Assembly (NCBI RefSeq): GCF_902143375.2
Contig: NZ_CABFVA020000114.1
Coordinates: forward strand, 1-64,000
DNA length: 64,000 nt
From: Methylacidimicrobium tartarophylax
GTDB lineage: Bacteria; Verrucomicrobiota; Verrucomicrobiia; Methylacidiphilales; Methylacidiphilaceae
Reading direction: 5' to 3'
Shown here: piece after piece, positions 10,862 through 16,604 of the stretch
Numbering within the stretch: position 1 is the first letter of the stretch
Layout of the letters: each line of letters begins with the position of its first letter
Position numbers and translations under genes: made by a program
The notes under the pieces: model-generated
What the model was told of the DNA's origin: nothing
Seen by the model: only the letters and a program-made list of their open reading frames with translations
Database searches by the model: none

Positions 10862-11398
10862 CGAGGCCGAACCGGGAGGCTCTGCACTCCTCCACTCTGG
10901 GAGCGAAGTAGCCGCCCAAAGGCGGACACTCTCGCAAGAACCGCCGTCCCTTAGGATACACGCCCACCGGACGCGAACGTCCGGTTTCGGAACCGCCCCT
11001 GGGCGGCGGCGTAGCCATAAAGAAAAATCCGGTTGTTCTCTCGCAACTACTTACCATTTTTGGCCCGGAAGTTCGGCTCAGGGGTTGCCTTGACGGTCAG
11101 GGGCCGCAGGCCCCAAAAAAAAGCGGACGTCTGCCCGCCAATGACTCAGGCCGAAAGCGGTGAAAGAGAGGAAAAGCTGCGCGGCGGCGTGCGCCGCGAC
11201 CAATTCAAGGTGGCCTCAAGCCGCCGTTGCACGCGAAGGACCGTCACCGGACGGCCGAGACGCCGCATCCTGCTCGCGGGATCTGAAGGCGGCTCGGGAA
11301 GCGTCGCATTCGCGGTGCGCGGGCCTGGTCCGGCATCAGCCGGACGTGCCCTCGCTACGATTGTACAGTTGAAACGTAAGAAAGCGGAAGGCCGCCGG
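10862..11398. other. 537-bp non-coding stretch at the left edge of the accessory island
   Basis: No credible gene. It contains several short hairpins in the first 180 bp: CCGCC/GGCGG near 10914-10928, an 8-bp stem with CGAA loop at 10966-10985, and CCGCCC/GGGCGG near 10997-11012. Further right is GGGGCC/GGCCCC followed by eight A (about 11100-11123), whose A-run is on the wrong side for a terminator of the plus-strand genes, and a GCCGG-type repeat near 11330. The first part may be the decayed end of a mobile element (see findings). Confidence 0.5.
10966..10985 (+). terminator. Hairpin downstream of mobB-moeA
   Basis: ACCGGACG (10966-10973), tetraloop CGAA, CGTCCGGT (10978-10985), followed by a short TT before CGG. 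It lies 105 bp after the stop of the formate dehydrogenase/Mo cofactor operon. The U-tract is too short for a confident intrinsic terminator; it could equally belong to a structured RNA. Confidence 0.3.
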
Positions 11399-14098
11399 TC
11401 AAAGAAGGACCGGCTCCACGCCAGCTTCGTATTTGCCGACTGTGTTTTCGAGATCTGTCTTGCGCTTCTTCGCAAAAGCGGCGAATTTCCGCAGATCCTC
11501 AAGGTCGCGGTCGATGTCCTCGGACGCAGGAAGTTCGGGCGGCAGCTCTTCGGCAAGATCGTGACCGGAGTAATGCGAGGTTCGTTTCATGCCCTCGAAG
11601 ATAACAGGATAATCGTTTTTGGTATCAAAACAGGCGGCCTTGAGGCGTTGTGTCATGATCTCGCACCGGAATCTCTGGATCGTCTTATTGAACAATATCT
11701 CTTCAACGATTCTTTCCCACGTTGTCCGCATTTGCGTGTACAGCCTTGTGACATCGCCGCGAAACTTCTCGTCGCTACGATCATAGCCCGCGTCCTTGAG
11801 CGCGCGCACCGCCTGATCGATCTCGGTCAATCGCTCCGTGACTGGCTTCACATGCCAGGGCTTTCGGGCATTGTCGATAATCCCGAAACGATCGTCGCCA
11901 AGGCTTGTCATCCATTCTTTGTGACAAGCGACACCGGCCCTGCGGGCTGCACTGCTCAGCATGTCATGGAAAAGAATGTTGTGGGTGAATACGATGACCT
12001 GACGACCGCTGGCGGCTTCTTGCGCAAGGCGGCCTGCGACAGACTCCATGCGCGAGTAGTCGAGCGATGACACGGGATCGTCCATAATGATTCCGTGATC
12101 GCGCCCAACTTCGTTGAGTTCGGCAAGAAAGCAGGCAAGCGCAAGACCACGCTGTTCGCCTTCGCTGAGCACGTCACTATTGTTGGCGATACGCTGCTGC
12201 GTGGACAGGGCAATCTCGATAATACTGCTGCCAAGGTCGCCGCGATCAGCAAGGCGAAGGGGAATGTGTGTGAGATGAAGCGCAGAGAGTTCGCATTCGA
12301 GCGCCTGCTTTAACGTCGGCGTTAGAATTTCCCGGCGACGTCTGGTGATCTGCTGCGTGATGGCCGTGATGCGGCAATCACGGCGACAGGCAGCGACCTT
12401 GTGCCGTTCTTCGAGACGGTTCCGCCGCTCGACAATCACTTCTATCTCTTCGCCAAGCTTCTTTTTGTCCGTGAGGTCCGCCAGTCGCGCCGCGCGCTGC
12501 TGGGCCGCAGCGTCATCGCGTTTCGCATTATTCAGGTTGTCCGCCTCTGTATTCAGCGCCGCGATTTCATCATCAATGAGCTGCGCGGGAGAATCGGGAA
12601 GCGCTTCGAGGTGATCCAGGTTGTCGTACTCCTGCGCGGTCAGGGTCGCCTTGACGACGCGCAGGCGGGCGGCTGCCTTCTCGAAGAAGGCCGCGAGCGT
12701 TTCGGCATATTCCTTTTTCTGCGGAGAGAGGGCGGCGTAACCGGCGAGAAGAGTTGTGACGTTGGCCCTGGTCTTCGTCGTCAACGCCAGCATCGCGGTA
12801 ACGGCTGCATCAAACATCTGCGTGGCTGTCGTGGCCTCTTCGGCGGCCTTGTCGGTCAGATAGGCATCGAACGCGGCGAGGCGCACCGCAGCGGGTTCAT
12901 CGAGTTCCTGCTGACAAAGAACGCACCGCTCTGCGGTGGCGATCTGAGGGGGATTACGGTCAGGGAACGCACTCGCGGCAAATTCGCGTGCGTATTTGAG
13001 CATATGCCGCCAGACTTCCGATCCCACGCCTGGAATTGGTTCGTCCTTGAATAGATCATGGGCCGATGCTTCCGCTGCTGCGCTCTTGGCTACAGCGTCC
13101 TGCCGCTTTTGCGACAGTGTCACGATCGCCGCATCCGCAAGCTTTTCCCGAATTGTGGCGATATCGACCTTGAGGGTTTCAAGAGCCTGGCGCGCTTCGA
13201 TGCGCAGGCGCGCGAGCGTCTGCGGATCGTTCTTGGATTCTTCAGTGAGGCGGTCAAGCTCGGTTTGAGTTTCGGCGGACCAGTTGGCGAGATCGCGGAG
13301 CGCCTGCTCGGAGGGAAGGTCATTGAGTGATGTGGCCGTCGTCAGTTTCGACACGAGCCGAGAGGCCGCAGTACCCTGAGTGTAGCCGGCCGGCAGAGGG
13401 ACATTCACCGTGGCATTGAATGCGTCTTCACGCGCGTTATAGCCGGTGTCCAGCATCTGCAATGCAACGCCGAGCTTGTTGAGCAGATCGAGTTCGTAGG
13501 GGAGAAATTTGATCTTTCGTTGCTTGTCCACATAGACGCGCGCGGTATCAGTATCGAAAACCGATATGCGGGCCAGTTCGGATGGCGGCGGATCGCTGCC
13601 CTTCCAAATGATCTCGGTTTTCGGTTGGGCATCATCGCCGACGCGGAAGCCAAGACCAATTTCCGCAGTTGGTGCCTTGTCCCTGCTGTAGATGTTGCCG
13701 CGAAGAGGGGCGCTGGTGAGTGAGCGGCAGAGCTGCTTGATAATGCGGCAATATCCGCTTTTGCCGGAAGCGTTCGGCCCGTAGACCAACGTGACGCCGT
13801 TCACCGCAAAACGCATTGGGGGTTGGTCAGATTCGAGCCGGTCAATATTCTTCACCGGGCCGAGCGAAGCGAGGACGGTTTTTGGCTCGTCGCTAGCGGC
13901 CTCGGAAAGATGTTCGGCGGCGAGCGGGGCAACCTCGGTCGGGTTTTCAGCGGGTAAGCCCTGCGCAATCTCAATCTGGGAGCGCAGGTCCGCAAAATCG
14001 TCTTCAGTCAGTTCGCCATGCTGGGCAAGTCGCCGCAAGGCGTCCTGCTGCCATAGCGGGCGTCCCTCAGCCCAATCGAGAAGTGCTTCATGTGCCAT
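11399..14098 (-). CDS. Large zinc-hook AAA/ABC ATPase, RloC/PrrC-like candidate defence protein
   Basis: 899 residues from ATG 14098 (a GTG at 14101 is equally possible). Visible: Walker A GPNASGKS (107-114); long helical arms with a CVLC hook at 392-395; ABC signature LSEGEQ (644-649); Walker B IIMDDP (670-675); switch histidine in THN (705-707). The 190-residue C-terminal part holds R791-TTW-E795 and, 47 residues on, H842 and H846 (in RTSHYSGHD). This order matches the AAA_13 family, which includes the anticodon nucleases PrrC and RloC, whose nuclease triad is R-x3-E...H. Nuclease function here is inference. Stand-alone, with no restriction-modification genes beside it. Codon use is less GC-biased than the neighbours, suggesting transfer. 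Confidence 0.75.
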   Translation of the reverse strand: MAHEALLDWAEGRPLWQQDALRRLAQHGELTEDDFADLRSQIEIAQGLPAENPTEVAPLAAEHLSEAASDEPKTVLASLGPVKNIDRLESDQPPMRFAVNGVTLVYGPNASGKSGYCRIIKQLCRSLTSAPLRGNIYSRDKAPTAEIGLGFRVGDDAQPKTEIIWKGSDPPPSELARISVFDTDTARVYVDKQRKIKFLPYELDLLNKLGVALQMLDTGYNAREDAFNATVNVPLPAGYTQGTAASRLVSKLTTATSLNDLPSEQALRDLANWSAETQTELDRLTEESKNDPQTLARLRIEARQALETLKVDIATIREKLADAAIVTLSQKRQDAVAKSAAAEASAHDLFKDEPIPGVGSEVWRHMLKYAREFAASAFPDRNPPQIATAERCVLCQQELDEPAAVRLAAFDAYLTDKAAEEATTATQMFDAAVTAMLALTTKTRANVTTLLAGYAALSPQKKEYAETLAAFFEKAAARLRVVKATLTAQEYDNLDHLEALPDSPAQLIDDEIAALNTEADNLNNAKRDDAAAQQRAARLADLTDKKKLGEEIEVIVERRNRLEERHKVAACRRDCRITAITQQITRRRREILTPTLKQALECELSALHLTHIPLRLADRGDLGSSIIEIALSTQQRIANNSDVLSEGEQRGLALACFLAELNEVGRDHGIIMDDPVSSLDYSRMESVAGRLAQEAASGRQVIVFTHNILFHDMLSSAARRAGVACHKEWMTSLGDDRFGIIDNARKPWHVKPVTERLTEIDQAVRALKDAGYDRSDEKFRGDVTRLYTQMRTTWERIVEEILFNKTIQRFRCEIMTQRLKAACFDTKNDYPVIFEGMKRTSHYSGHDLAEELPPELPASEDIDRDLEDLRKFAAFAKKRKTDLENTVGKYEAGVEPVLL

Positions 14099-14186
14099 CA
14101 CTGCTCCCGCGCACGTAGCGGTCTGTTATGTCATTGCATCAAGAATCCAATTGCGACTGGTCCTGCCGCGAATGCATTGCTACCGA

Positions 14187-14671
14187 TCATGCCGATATCT
14201 GTTCTTCGCTGGTGTCAGTCTCCAAAGGCAATTGCCGCCCGCCGAGTCCCGGGAAAAGCCGCTCGCGGCAGGTCAAGACGATGACCTGCACGTTGCGCGC
14301 CGCCATGTTGAGAATGACAAACATACGGCTCATCCGCCGGTCGTCGGGAAAGACCAGTGCATCGTCAAGAACAACCGTTGCTGGGTGCCCCCGCTCCACC
14401 AGCATTTCGGCAAAGGCGATCTGTTCCTGCGTGCCCATGCTGAGGTGGTGGAACGCTTCCTCGTGACCGGCTTCCTTGACGACGCCGGTGATGCGGAGGT
14501 TTTCATTGATCGCGATATCGACACCGGGAAACAGGAGTTGCAAATAGCGACGGACGCGGTTTAGCACCAGCGACAGATAGCGCTCACCGGCGTCATGTTC
14601 CGCGTCGCGGAGCGTGGATAACAACAAGGTGAGAACTGCGGCTTCGCGCTCAAAACGGCCGCATTCTTCGT
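14187..14671 (-). pseudogene. C-terminal remnant of an SMC/YhaN-like ATPase
   Basis: The frame encodes only the last ~160 residues of a large ATPase: signature LSMGTQEQIAFAEML, Walker B ATVVLDDALVFPDD, then VIVLTCRERLFPGLGG. In intact relatives this follows a long coiled coil and an N-terminal Walker A; all of that is missing. The frame can be read upstream (minus strand) as far as about 14671, where it runs into a dinJ-type antitoxin in another frame, so a deletion probably joined the two. An internal ATG at 14627 could still give a 146-residue product. Confidence 0.75.
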
Positions 14672-14839
14672 CGCGTTCGGGATTAGAGGCTCGAAAGGCA
14701 GCGCCTTGTCCTGGGCCACCTTCTTGAGCAGCATCCGGACCGCATCGGACACGGGAAGGCCCATCGCGGCCAATACTGCGAAAGCTTCCTCTTTGGTCGC
14801 GCTATCAATACGCGCCTGCACGAGTTGATTGGCAGACAT
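14561..14839 (-). CDS. RelB/DinJ-type antitoxin, probably with a replaced C-terminus
   Basis: 92-residue frame. Residues 1-57 are a good RelB/DinJ antitoxin (VQARIDSATKEEAFAVL, GLPVSDAVRMLLKKVA, ALPFEPLIPN). After residue ~57 the sequence is Cys/Pro-rich and unlike the family, and it overlaps the ATPase remnant in a different frame. The usual YafQ-type toxin partner does not follow. I read it as an antitoxin gene truncated by a deletion that fused it to ATPase sequence; whether a protein is made is unknown. Confidence 0.55.
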   Translation of the reverse strand: MSANQLVQARIDSATKEEAFAVLAAMGLPVSDAVRMLLKKVAQDKALPFEPLIPNATKNAAVLSAKPQFSPCCYPRSATRNMTPVSAICRWC

Positions 14840-15098
14840 GGTTTTTCCGTTATGCTTTAATTGTATGACAACGTAATGCAGGCAGCCCGGAAAGGCAAGC
14901 CTCTCCGGGCCAAGAACATCACCAATTAGGGTGTTGTCGATTTTTGAGGCAACAGGCTGCCAGGAAGATAATATTCGCCGAAAGCGTGGCCTTCCAGGGG
15001 TTGGTCGTCGAACAGACGGCTGAAAAAACCTACACTCGAACTCAGTGTTGGAGCGAACCGGTTCCCCAGGCCTCATGGCCCGGGCTTCATTTAGCACG

Positions 15099-15631
15099 TC
15101 ACATCCGGAAGCCGGGACGTTCCATCCGCTGCATCCGCTCTTCGAGCTGCTCCCGCGTGAAGTTAAGCCCCTGCTTCAAGAGTTCGTGGATGTCCCACGG
15201 GCAACTCTGCGGAAGATCCTCCTCAACTAGACGCTGCTTCAGTTTCTTCTGCTCCCACATCTCCTCGGACTTATCGATGACGCGGCTGCGCGCGCCTTCG
15301 TACGTTTCCGCGATGATCTCGTCCCACTTGTGTCTTAGACTTGGGTTTTTCTTTAACAAACGAGGGATCTGCCGCCGATCCTCCTTGACGGTGCGTTCCC
15401 ATCCCTGCCCATCCCTCTCCGGATCTCTCTTCAGGAAGGCGATATAGAGAAGATGCTCCATCACGAGTTCGAGCCGACTCTCCAAATGGCTCCGCTGGCT
15501 GCTTCCCAAGTCCTCGACCTCATCAACGAGGCTTTTATATCCAGCTTCTCGAACCGCCCCTCGCGCAGAAGCCGGGCTGTCTCCTGCGTCCCGGCGTAGA
15601 AATCCCGTTCGTACAGCTCCTTCGCCGTCAT
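15099..15631 (-). pseudogene. DUF29 family protein, frameshifted
   Basis: The N-terminal half starts at ATG 15631 (MTAKELYERDFYAGTQETA, then LLREGRFEKLDI) and the C-terminal half continues in another frame (VDEVEDLGSSQRS, LESRLELVMEHLLY, ...) to 15099. The switch is near 15529-15533, where loss of one base in a GCC-TC-GTT context breaks an otherwise continuous DUF29 sequence of about 177 residues. DUF29 proteins have no known function and are common in cyanobacteria and on mobile DNA. The two halves are clearly one gene; a sequencing error is the alternative. Confidence 0.75.
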
Positions 15632-15640
15632 GGAGTCACG
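15579..15640. repeat. 62-bp direct repeat, copy 1 (5' end of DUF29 gene)
   Basis: Matches 16362-16423 at about 58 of 62 positions in the same orientation. The repeat covers the first ~17 codons of the DUF29 gene and a few bases upstream of it. The pair brackets the dinJ/yafQ module. Confidence 0.85.
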
Positions 15641-15688
15641 GTCACGCCGCACAAAAGCGGCCGCAATCAAAAAAGGCCGGGCATCCAG

Positions 15689-15943
15689 TCATAAGCGCAG
15701 TTGCGAATGGGAGCCGAGCCGCAGCAGTTCCAGCGTTTCCGCGTCCGGCTTGACGTGGCAGTCACGGCACCCGTGCCAATTGCCGCTTAGGGCATGCTCC
15801 CGATGGAGCGGCTCTAACGGCTCATCGTTCGCCAGCGCCACCAGAACCGGCCGCAGCATTGCCGCAAGCGTTTTGCCGTGCTTCCCCTTGGCCTCGCGTG
15901 CCACGTCACGTTCGAACGGCCCGGATTCTAGGATTTGCCGCAT
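15689..15943 (-). CDS. YafQ-family mRNA interferase toxin with apparent internal deletion
   Basis: 84 residues. Matches YafQ in FERDVAREAKGKHGKTL, HALSGNWHGCRDCHVKPD and RLGSHSQL. H50, H63 and D67 fall at the same numbers as the catalytic residues of E. coli YafQ, and H79 would correspond to its H87. The strand that usually lies between KPD and the C-terminal part (an LLIY-type segment of about 8-9 residues) is absent, so sequence jumps from KPD directly to AETLELLRLG. The toxin is likely weakened or inactive. Starts 6 bp after its antitoxin stop. Confidence 0.82.
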   Translation of the reverse strand: MRQILESGPFERDVAREAKGKHGKTLAAMLRPVLVALANDEPLEPLHREHALSGNWHGCRDCHVKPDAETLELLRLGSHSQLRL

Positions 15944-15949
15944 GCGGGC

Positions 15950-16219
15950 TTACCGCTTCCGGCCTTCCCTGCGCGCCTCTTCTATGTCGGCCATGATGCC
16001 CTCAATCGTCGTCGGCGTAAGCTTGCCAGCCTGCGCTTCCTCAATAGCGCGCACTGTTTCCGGGCTGGGCTGGAACAGGTCGAGCGGCAAGGTCCGGTCC
16101 GTGGCAATCCGCGTCATGAACATGCGCACCACATCGGACACGGTTAGACCCGTGGACTTGATGACCGCGCTTGCAACGTCCTGAATCTCGTCAGGCACCC
16201 GAGCTTGAATCTTCGCCAT
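15950..16219 (-). CDS. RelB/DinJ-type antitoxin of the dinJ/yafQ module
   Basis: 89 residues: ribbon-helix-helix N-terminus (MAKIQARVPDEIQDVASAVI, TGLTVSDVVRMFMTRIA) that binds DNA, and a C-terminal toxin-binding tail ending EEARREGRKR. A strong ribosome site AGGAGG is 8 nt before the ATG at 16219. Upstream is a 23-bp palindrome on a promoter, consistent with autoregulation. Complete and apparently functional, unlike its toxin partner. Confidence 0.88.
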   Translation of the reverse strand: MAKIQARVPDEIQDVASAVIKSTGLTVSDVVRMFMTRIATDRTLPLDLFQPSPETVRAIEEAQAGKLTPTTIEGIMADIEEARREGRKR

Positions 16220-16361: not shown

Positions 16362-16423
16362 GTCTCCTGCGTCCAGGCGTAAAAGTCCCGTTCGTAGAGC
16401 TCCTTCGCCGTCATGGAGTCACG
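16362..16423. repeat. 62-bp direct repeat, copy 2 with truncated DUF29 5' end
   Basis: Second copy of 15579-15640. On the minus strand an ATG at 16414 begins MTAKELYERDFYAWTQETV and then runs into unrelated sequence, so only the first ~17 codons of a DUF29 gene remain. The rest of the 385-bp gap 16220-16604 holds the dinJ promoter/operator and no other gene that I can support. Confidence 0.8.
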
Positions 16424-16604
16424 ATCATGGAGCGCCAGAAGAGCCGCGAGCGGAAAACCGCCTGCCGCCGTCTCTCCATTCTGAGCCGTATTCTCCGGGG
16501 AGGATCGGGAGCGACCGCGCCGGGCGCGATGTTTTCGGATGGAATGTAGCGGTATTGGGCGGCAGTCAGAGCGGCTGCTCGCTCTTATCGGCCCGAGCGT
16601 TGCG

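Follow-up and report, generated by a model that had tools for sequence, protein, structure and literature searches.

Introduction

RloC and PrrC, two characterised anticodon nucleases, are the closest described systems to the protein we deal with here. RloC is defined by the motif R-x3-E-x36-52-H (Davidov and Kaufmann, PMC2610378), and mutating each residue of this triad abolishes both the anticodon nuclease activity and the toxicity of G. kaustophilus RloC (PMC2610378). In its characteristic reaction the wobble nucleotide is excised from tRNA, with linear DNA and ATP as activators. RloC is activated by DNA breaks (PMC3874168), and its published linkage is to restriction-modification (R-M) genes in 8/73 and to DNA metabolism genes in 10/73 cases. 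A further point of reference is PDC-S06, a phage defence candidate that PADLOC lists as a catalogue entry without mechanism and that has been annotated in published genome surveys. Among P. aeruginosa strains, the 38 with PDC-S06 were 74% phage resistant, a correlative figure (PMC10855318), while a B. cereus survey treats it as a candidate system whose proteins are named differently by DefenseFinder (PMC11811056).

Here, we describe an ABC-ATPase gene from Methylacidimicrobium tartarophylax, found in a stretch of 64,000 nucleotides (the window), whose product we interpret as most probably an RNase gated by its ATPase, remotely akin to RloC.

Results

An intact gene for a zinc-hook ABC ATPase of the PDC-S06 family

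The gene, present as a single copy in its own genome, is an uninterrupted ORF of 900 codons on the minus strand of the window (11399-14101). Besides GTG, an alternative start (ATG at 14098) is offered by the next codon; since an earlier sequence-only reading of this DNA opened the gene at that ATG, its residue n corresponds to n+1 here. The following features were located.

11399..14101, minus strand: PDC-S06/RloC-like ABC-ATPase gene with a C-terminal nuclease-like domain (900 aa, GTG start)
13757..13780, minus strand: Walker A GPNASGKS, residues 108-115 (from alignments; position computed from residue numbers)
12914..12925, minus strand: zinc-hook motif CVLC, residues 393-396 (C393, C396), between predicted coiled-coil helices
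12155..12169, minus strand: ABC signature LSEGE, residues 645-649 (S646, E647 and E649 invariant in both alignments)
12059..12091, minus strand: Walker B/D-loop IIMDDPVSSLD, residues 671-681 (D674, D675, P676, S679 and D681 invariant)
11981..11986, minus strand: H-loop T706-H707 (invariant in both alignments)

In Pfam, AAA_13 (82 bits) and AAA_21 are matched, and the protein's Walker A, signature, Walker B/D-loop (DDPVSSLD being residues 674-681) and H-loop residues are kept across alignments with 17, 22 and, combined, 37 homologues. C393 and C396 are invariant in the 17-homologue alignment and at least 90% conserved in the one with 22 homologues. A full-length structure model (pLDDT 83.4, pTM 0.60), in which helices 293-350 and 402-438 flank the CVLC hook, finds its best match in Rad50 of the Mre11-Rad50-Nbs1 complex (7zr1, E 4e-8). 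Thus the ATPase motifs, the CxxC hook in coiled-coil arms and the distinct C-terminal domain that the sequence-only reading had described are all present and conserved in our alignments.

Residues 1-880, practically the full length, match PADLOC PDC-S06 (PDLC04891, 603 bits, E 1.9e-181), compared with a partial match to Lamassu LmuB (45.7 bits), an identity we rejected. Given this full-length match and an architecture already published for RloC, the earlier idea of a new combination is incorrect. PDC-S06 itself is mixed and includes the ~850-aa clade of the window protein as well as RloC-type proteins: the window protein and its relatives match PDLC04891/04893/04888/04892, and an RloC-type protein of 760 aa that the genome also encodes (L002) matches PDLC04894/04896/04887. 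Separately, five loci (L155, L156, L157, L159, L164) encode ABC proteins of ~730-800 aa with a C-terminal R-x3-E followed by a motif like NIHLNSFMYEP, a group which is neither RloC-type nor part of the window protein's clade. The ORF is real and intact, and its product is a member of a catalogued, uncharacterised family.

Invariant residues and predicted fold of the C-terminal domain

Downstream of the H-loop, the protein continues into a helical domain with the following features.

11435..11884, minus strand: C-terminal helical domain, ~residues 740-889, with a predicted HEPN-like fold (model and Foldseek)
11714..11728, minus strand: R792-x3-E796, part of the putative catalytic triad (invariant in 37/37)
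11672..11674, minus strand: R810, additional invariant arginine in the window protein's clade (37/37)
11561..11563, minus strand: H847, putative catalytic histidine (E796-x50-H847; 37/37)

G740, R792, E796, R810 and H847 are the invariant positions past the H-loop in both homologue sets, and the last four are kept in each of the 37 diverged homologues with a spacing of 48-52 residues between E796 and H847. Given that identity between homologues is mostly 20-33% in this domain, the invariance of R792, E796, R810 and H847 exceeds chance. The PrrC/RloC-type R-x3-E...H triad proposed earlier (as R791, E795 and H846) is therefore borne out by all 37 homologues. Its two downstream histidines fared differently, with H847 invariant but H843 (noted as H842) free to vary in the 37-sequence set. 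Similarly, the alternative reading of the site as a HEPN-like R-x6-H holds in part: by our own count a basic residue, not strictly Arg, precedes H847 by 5-7 positions in 31 of the 37 homologues, yet R840, the arginine of that reading, is variable. Among PrrC proteins, 4/5 have a basic residue exactly x6 before the histidine, as do about half of those of RloC type.

AlphaFold2, run on the last 200 residues with a 22-sequence alignment, returned a mainly helical model (pLDDT 86.6, pTM 0.82), whose top Foldseek match in the PDB is the HEPN protein 2hsb (probability 0.95, E 0.079), with further HepT/HEPN chains below it (7bxo 0.97, 6m6w 0.92, 6m6u 0.89, 5yep 0.89 and 1wol). At the top of the PDB matches, HEPN proteins outnumber any other kind; E-values are weak (0.08-0.7, no HEPN match below 0.05 against the PDB) and unrelated helical bundles were matched, too. 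The comparison with HEPN structures suggested by the sequence-only reading thus places these proteins closest, albeit with weak E-values, which supports, without proving, a HEPN-like fold of the modelled domain. No Pfam model was found to cover the domain, and a fold search of BFVD gave no useful match.

The window copy and its relative L003

Upstream of the gene lies a series of broken and intact genes.

14187..14674, minus strand: SbcC/Rad50-like ATPase gene, 3' remnant, cut off 5' of 14674 (sbcC profile, 262 bits)
14675..14839, minus strand: orphan RelB antitoxin, truncated, abutting the sbcC remnant (RelB/DinJ, 66.8 bits, ORF 14561-15097)
15099..15670, minus strand: DUF29 gene broken into two frames (15461-15670 and 15099-15509)
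15689..16219, minus strand: toxin-antitoxin pair RelB/DinJ (15950-16219) and YafQ/RelE (15689-15943), apparently intact

The earlier description as toxin-antitoxin debris broadly holds: the RelB/YafQ pair seems intact, the orphan RelB is truncated and the DUF29 copies are broken. The sbcC-like remnant had been missed. The latter begins 85 bp upstream of the ABC-ATPase gene, and its open part (14187-14627) encodes 146 aa. Its origin can be traced through a metagenome-assembled genome labelled Deltaproteobacteria (L003), which holds an 89%-identical copy of the protein: window 11395-14674 matches L003 6235-9533 at 90%. This match takes in the whole gene, the gap of 85 bp and the final portion of the sbcC-like gene, and where the homology ends we place the relB/sbcC junction. 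The L003 locus retains an intact sbcC-like operon with, on the same strand and in this order, a KaiC/RadA-like ATPase, a coiled-coil protein, a 159-aa protein, an SbcD/Mre11-like metallophosphatase, an SbcC/Rad50-like ATPase and the homologue. With homology limited to 11395-14674 and the sbcC-like gene cut off, the window copy seems to be what is left of an L003-type locus, orphaned from its SbcD-SbcC-like operon. The earlier description as a stand-alone gene fits the window copy but not this apparent descent, and truncation of the partner gene may mean that the copy has lost its normal control. In pairwise comparison with L003 (dS 0.23), dN/dS is 0.24 for the whole ORF and 0.21 when restricted to residues 740-900, indicating purifying selection on the ORF through most of the divergence from L003.

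The interval between a moeA-like and an alpha/beta-hydrolase gene in which the island resides is empty (40-243 bp) in three congeners (G266, G389, G391) and filled with other DNA in three more (G388, G392, G390), where inspection of the sequences revealed a heavy-metal ATPase-like gene among others, or else DUF29 genes. It is an insertion hotspot, not one specifically for defence; a dedicated defence hotspot is unsupported given the cargo of the occupied congeners. The start of the DUF29 gene exists in two 81%-identical window copies (15579-15674 and, as a 5' stub, 16362-16457), and together with related DUF29 DNA in G390 these suggest that DUF29 copies accumulate there. On the other side of the gene, an element of ~85 bp (10993-11078) has 84-92% identical copies elsewhere in the same and two related genomes.

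Distribution and neighbourhoods of homologues

Searched by tblastn, 188 plasmid records matched the protein, 39 of them at a coverage of at least 80% and with a best identity of 50%, and phages gave zero matches. We surveyed 47 loci of the clade, ~42 of them distinct as a few were fetched twice. An SbcD-like gene, recognised by profile, adjoins the homologue or sits one gene off on the same strand at four of the 47 (L003, L057, L059, L173); by annotation, L039 has a different pair, made up of an exonuclease and YhaN, and in L168 a pair stands two genes off. An obligate three-gene operon of SbcD, SbcC and ABC nuclease can be discarded, most clade loci being without the pair. RloC-type genes share this association, one of them (Maritalea, L167) behind the closest homologues of the pair and another adjoining an SbcD/SbcC-like pair in G101 (L178), the latter being the one case among 14 SbcD-like genes (E <1e-20) of our phylum sample that has an ABC-nuclease neighbour. 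An SbcD scan of viral contigs returned only two loci. As most SbcD/SbcC-like pairs stand without an ABC-nuclease neighbour, the linkage is recurrent but sporadic. On a Methylocystis plasmid (L170, 7001-14027), such a pair is followed on the same strand by SIR2 and ATP-binding proteins. Side by side, L003, Maritalea L167 and Methylocystis L170 give hints of exchangeable effectors behind the SbcD/SbcC-like pair.

Type I hsd genes occur at L043, where the homologue lies between hsdS and hsdR, as well as at L058 and L175. A minority of the clade's loci are linked either to genes of type I R-M or to those of Mre11/Rad50 type, similar to what has been reported for RloC. BREX, Dsr1 and AbiEii genes are found near homologues on several plasmids. 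Both 50%-identical homologues (L033 2615-4891, L034 3238-4896) are preceded by a gene for an nSTAND3 NTPase, which in L033 bears an Mrr-type nuclease domain; this NTPase is a possible alternative partner. In the window's own genome, a further protein, of RloC type, is encoded within a textbook hsdM-hsdS-rloC-hsdR arrangement (contig C120, L177, 5284-13541); the genome hence holds two diverged ABC-nuclease systems.

Discussion

To our minds, the probability is roughly two in three that the protein is an RloC-like, stress- or phage-activated nuclease that stops translation and comes from a sister lineage of RloC plus PrrC. Two subunits would pair through their zinc-hook arms and the Rad50-like heads of the ABC ATPase; once bound, a DNA end or damaged phage or host DNA, presumably together with ATP turnover, would change the heads and thereby release the C-terminal HEPN-like domain, whose R792-E796-H847 site (with R810) may then cut RNA, most likely tRNA anticodon loops, so that translation would stop and infection be aborted. 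RNase chemistry is suggested by the triad and the weak HEPN match, a tRNA substrate is probable by analogy with RloC and PrrC, and DNA-end gating may be envisaged in view of a Rad50-like head, of exonuclease neighbours and of the way RloC is activated. The catalogue entry and the genomic context, in turn, point to a role in phage defence. By analogy, then, the protein is most likely a DNA-end-gated RNase, probably directed at tRNA, of abortive phage defence. In a bolder version, which strikes us as doubtful, the clade would be a third lineage of RNases under ATPase control that split off long ago, has a site (R792-E796-R810-H847) and a substrate of its own, and serves in some genomes as effector of a dedicated Mre11-Rad50-type sensor of DNA ends.

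Among the rival explanations, one retains the architecture and RNase chemistry but replaces the target, so that a Rad50-like ATPase would gate a general HEPN endonuclease of mRNA or rRNA. HEPN RNases such as RNase LS do cut mRNA (PMC3710099), R810 is an extra invariant of the window clade and profiles reveal no recognisable homology between its C-terminal domain and that of RloC or PrrC; nonetheless, R-x3-E with its spacing to the histidine and the R-M linkage match both characterised anticodon nucleases, and we consider a target other than tRNA unlikely. Less probable still is that the C-terminal domain is no nuclease but a helical domain for binding a partner or nucleic acid, with the Rad50-like ATPase acting in repair or DNA restriction alongside a linked Mre11-like exonuclease. 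HEPN domains without catalysis exist, the Foldseek matches extend to unrelated helical bundles and SbcD/SbcC-like genes are repeatedly linked; against this, invariance centres on R, E, R and H, polar residues of catalytic type, and most homologues have no exonuclease neighbour. Finally, a decaying, non-functional remnant within a degraded island, as might be suspected from the truncation of the neighbouring sbcC-like and relB genes, from the broken DUF29 genes and from the empty site in three congeners, is the least probable of all, as the ORF and all invariant residues are intact and dN/dS is low, albeit as a pairwise value insensitive to very recent loss.

If the RloC-like nuclease reading is right, PDC-S06, a widespread defence candidate, gains a concrete, mutable putative active site and a testable mechanism, and the Mre11/Rad50 linkage would allow a direct test of DNA-end sensing coupled to translation shutdown.

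Relation to known systems

With Rad50/SbcC, the window protein shares the head fold and the hook, yet these lack a C-terminal nuclease-like domain. PrrC also combines an ABC ATPase with an R-x3-E...H domain, and the L043 homologue occupies the typical prrC place between hsdS and hsdR; PrrC, however, is only half as large, lacks a zinc hook and has been described as always linked to R-M genes, whereas the window protein carries CxxC and its locus is devoid of hsd genes. Likeness to RloC goes further and includes the Rad50-like ABC head split by coiled-coil arms carrying CxxC, the C-terminal R-x3-E...H (x48-52 in the window clade fits x36-52 of RloC), similar size (658-897 aa) and a sporadic linkage to genes of type I R-M and of DNA metabolism. 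Differences are an N-terminal extension of ~70 residues ahead of the P-loop, the extra invariant R810 and a C-terminal domain that barely aligns with that of RloC. Comparing C-terminal profiles by hhalign with the H-loop part removed, the window clade scores 4% (E 0.01) against RloC, as opposed to 44.5% with that part included, and has no match to PrrC (reversed controls ≤0.4%), while RloC-type and PrrC profiles score 94% (E 1.5e-7) against each other. Moreover, the weak alignment with RloC puts the RloC catalytic His on non-conserved H843 rather than H847, so the case for H847 as its equivalent is made by conservation and spacing rather than by alignment.

A tree from head-domain columns, with its outgroup on a long branch and motif-assigned RloC rows that leave out the characterised G. 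kaustophilus RloC, unites the window clade (99/97) and places it, with modest support, outside a group of RloC plus PrrC (92/71); an ancestry shared with RloC-type proteins but not with PrrC was not recovered there. On this evidence, the window clade would work like RloC and fits its motif definition but is not to be filed as an RloC orthologue. It is a distant variant of the known RloC/PrrC kind, from a PDC-S06 family already catalogued as a defence candidate, and adds a third branch to the RloC/PrrC group.
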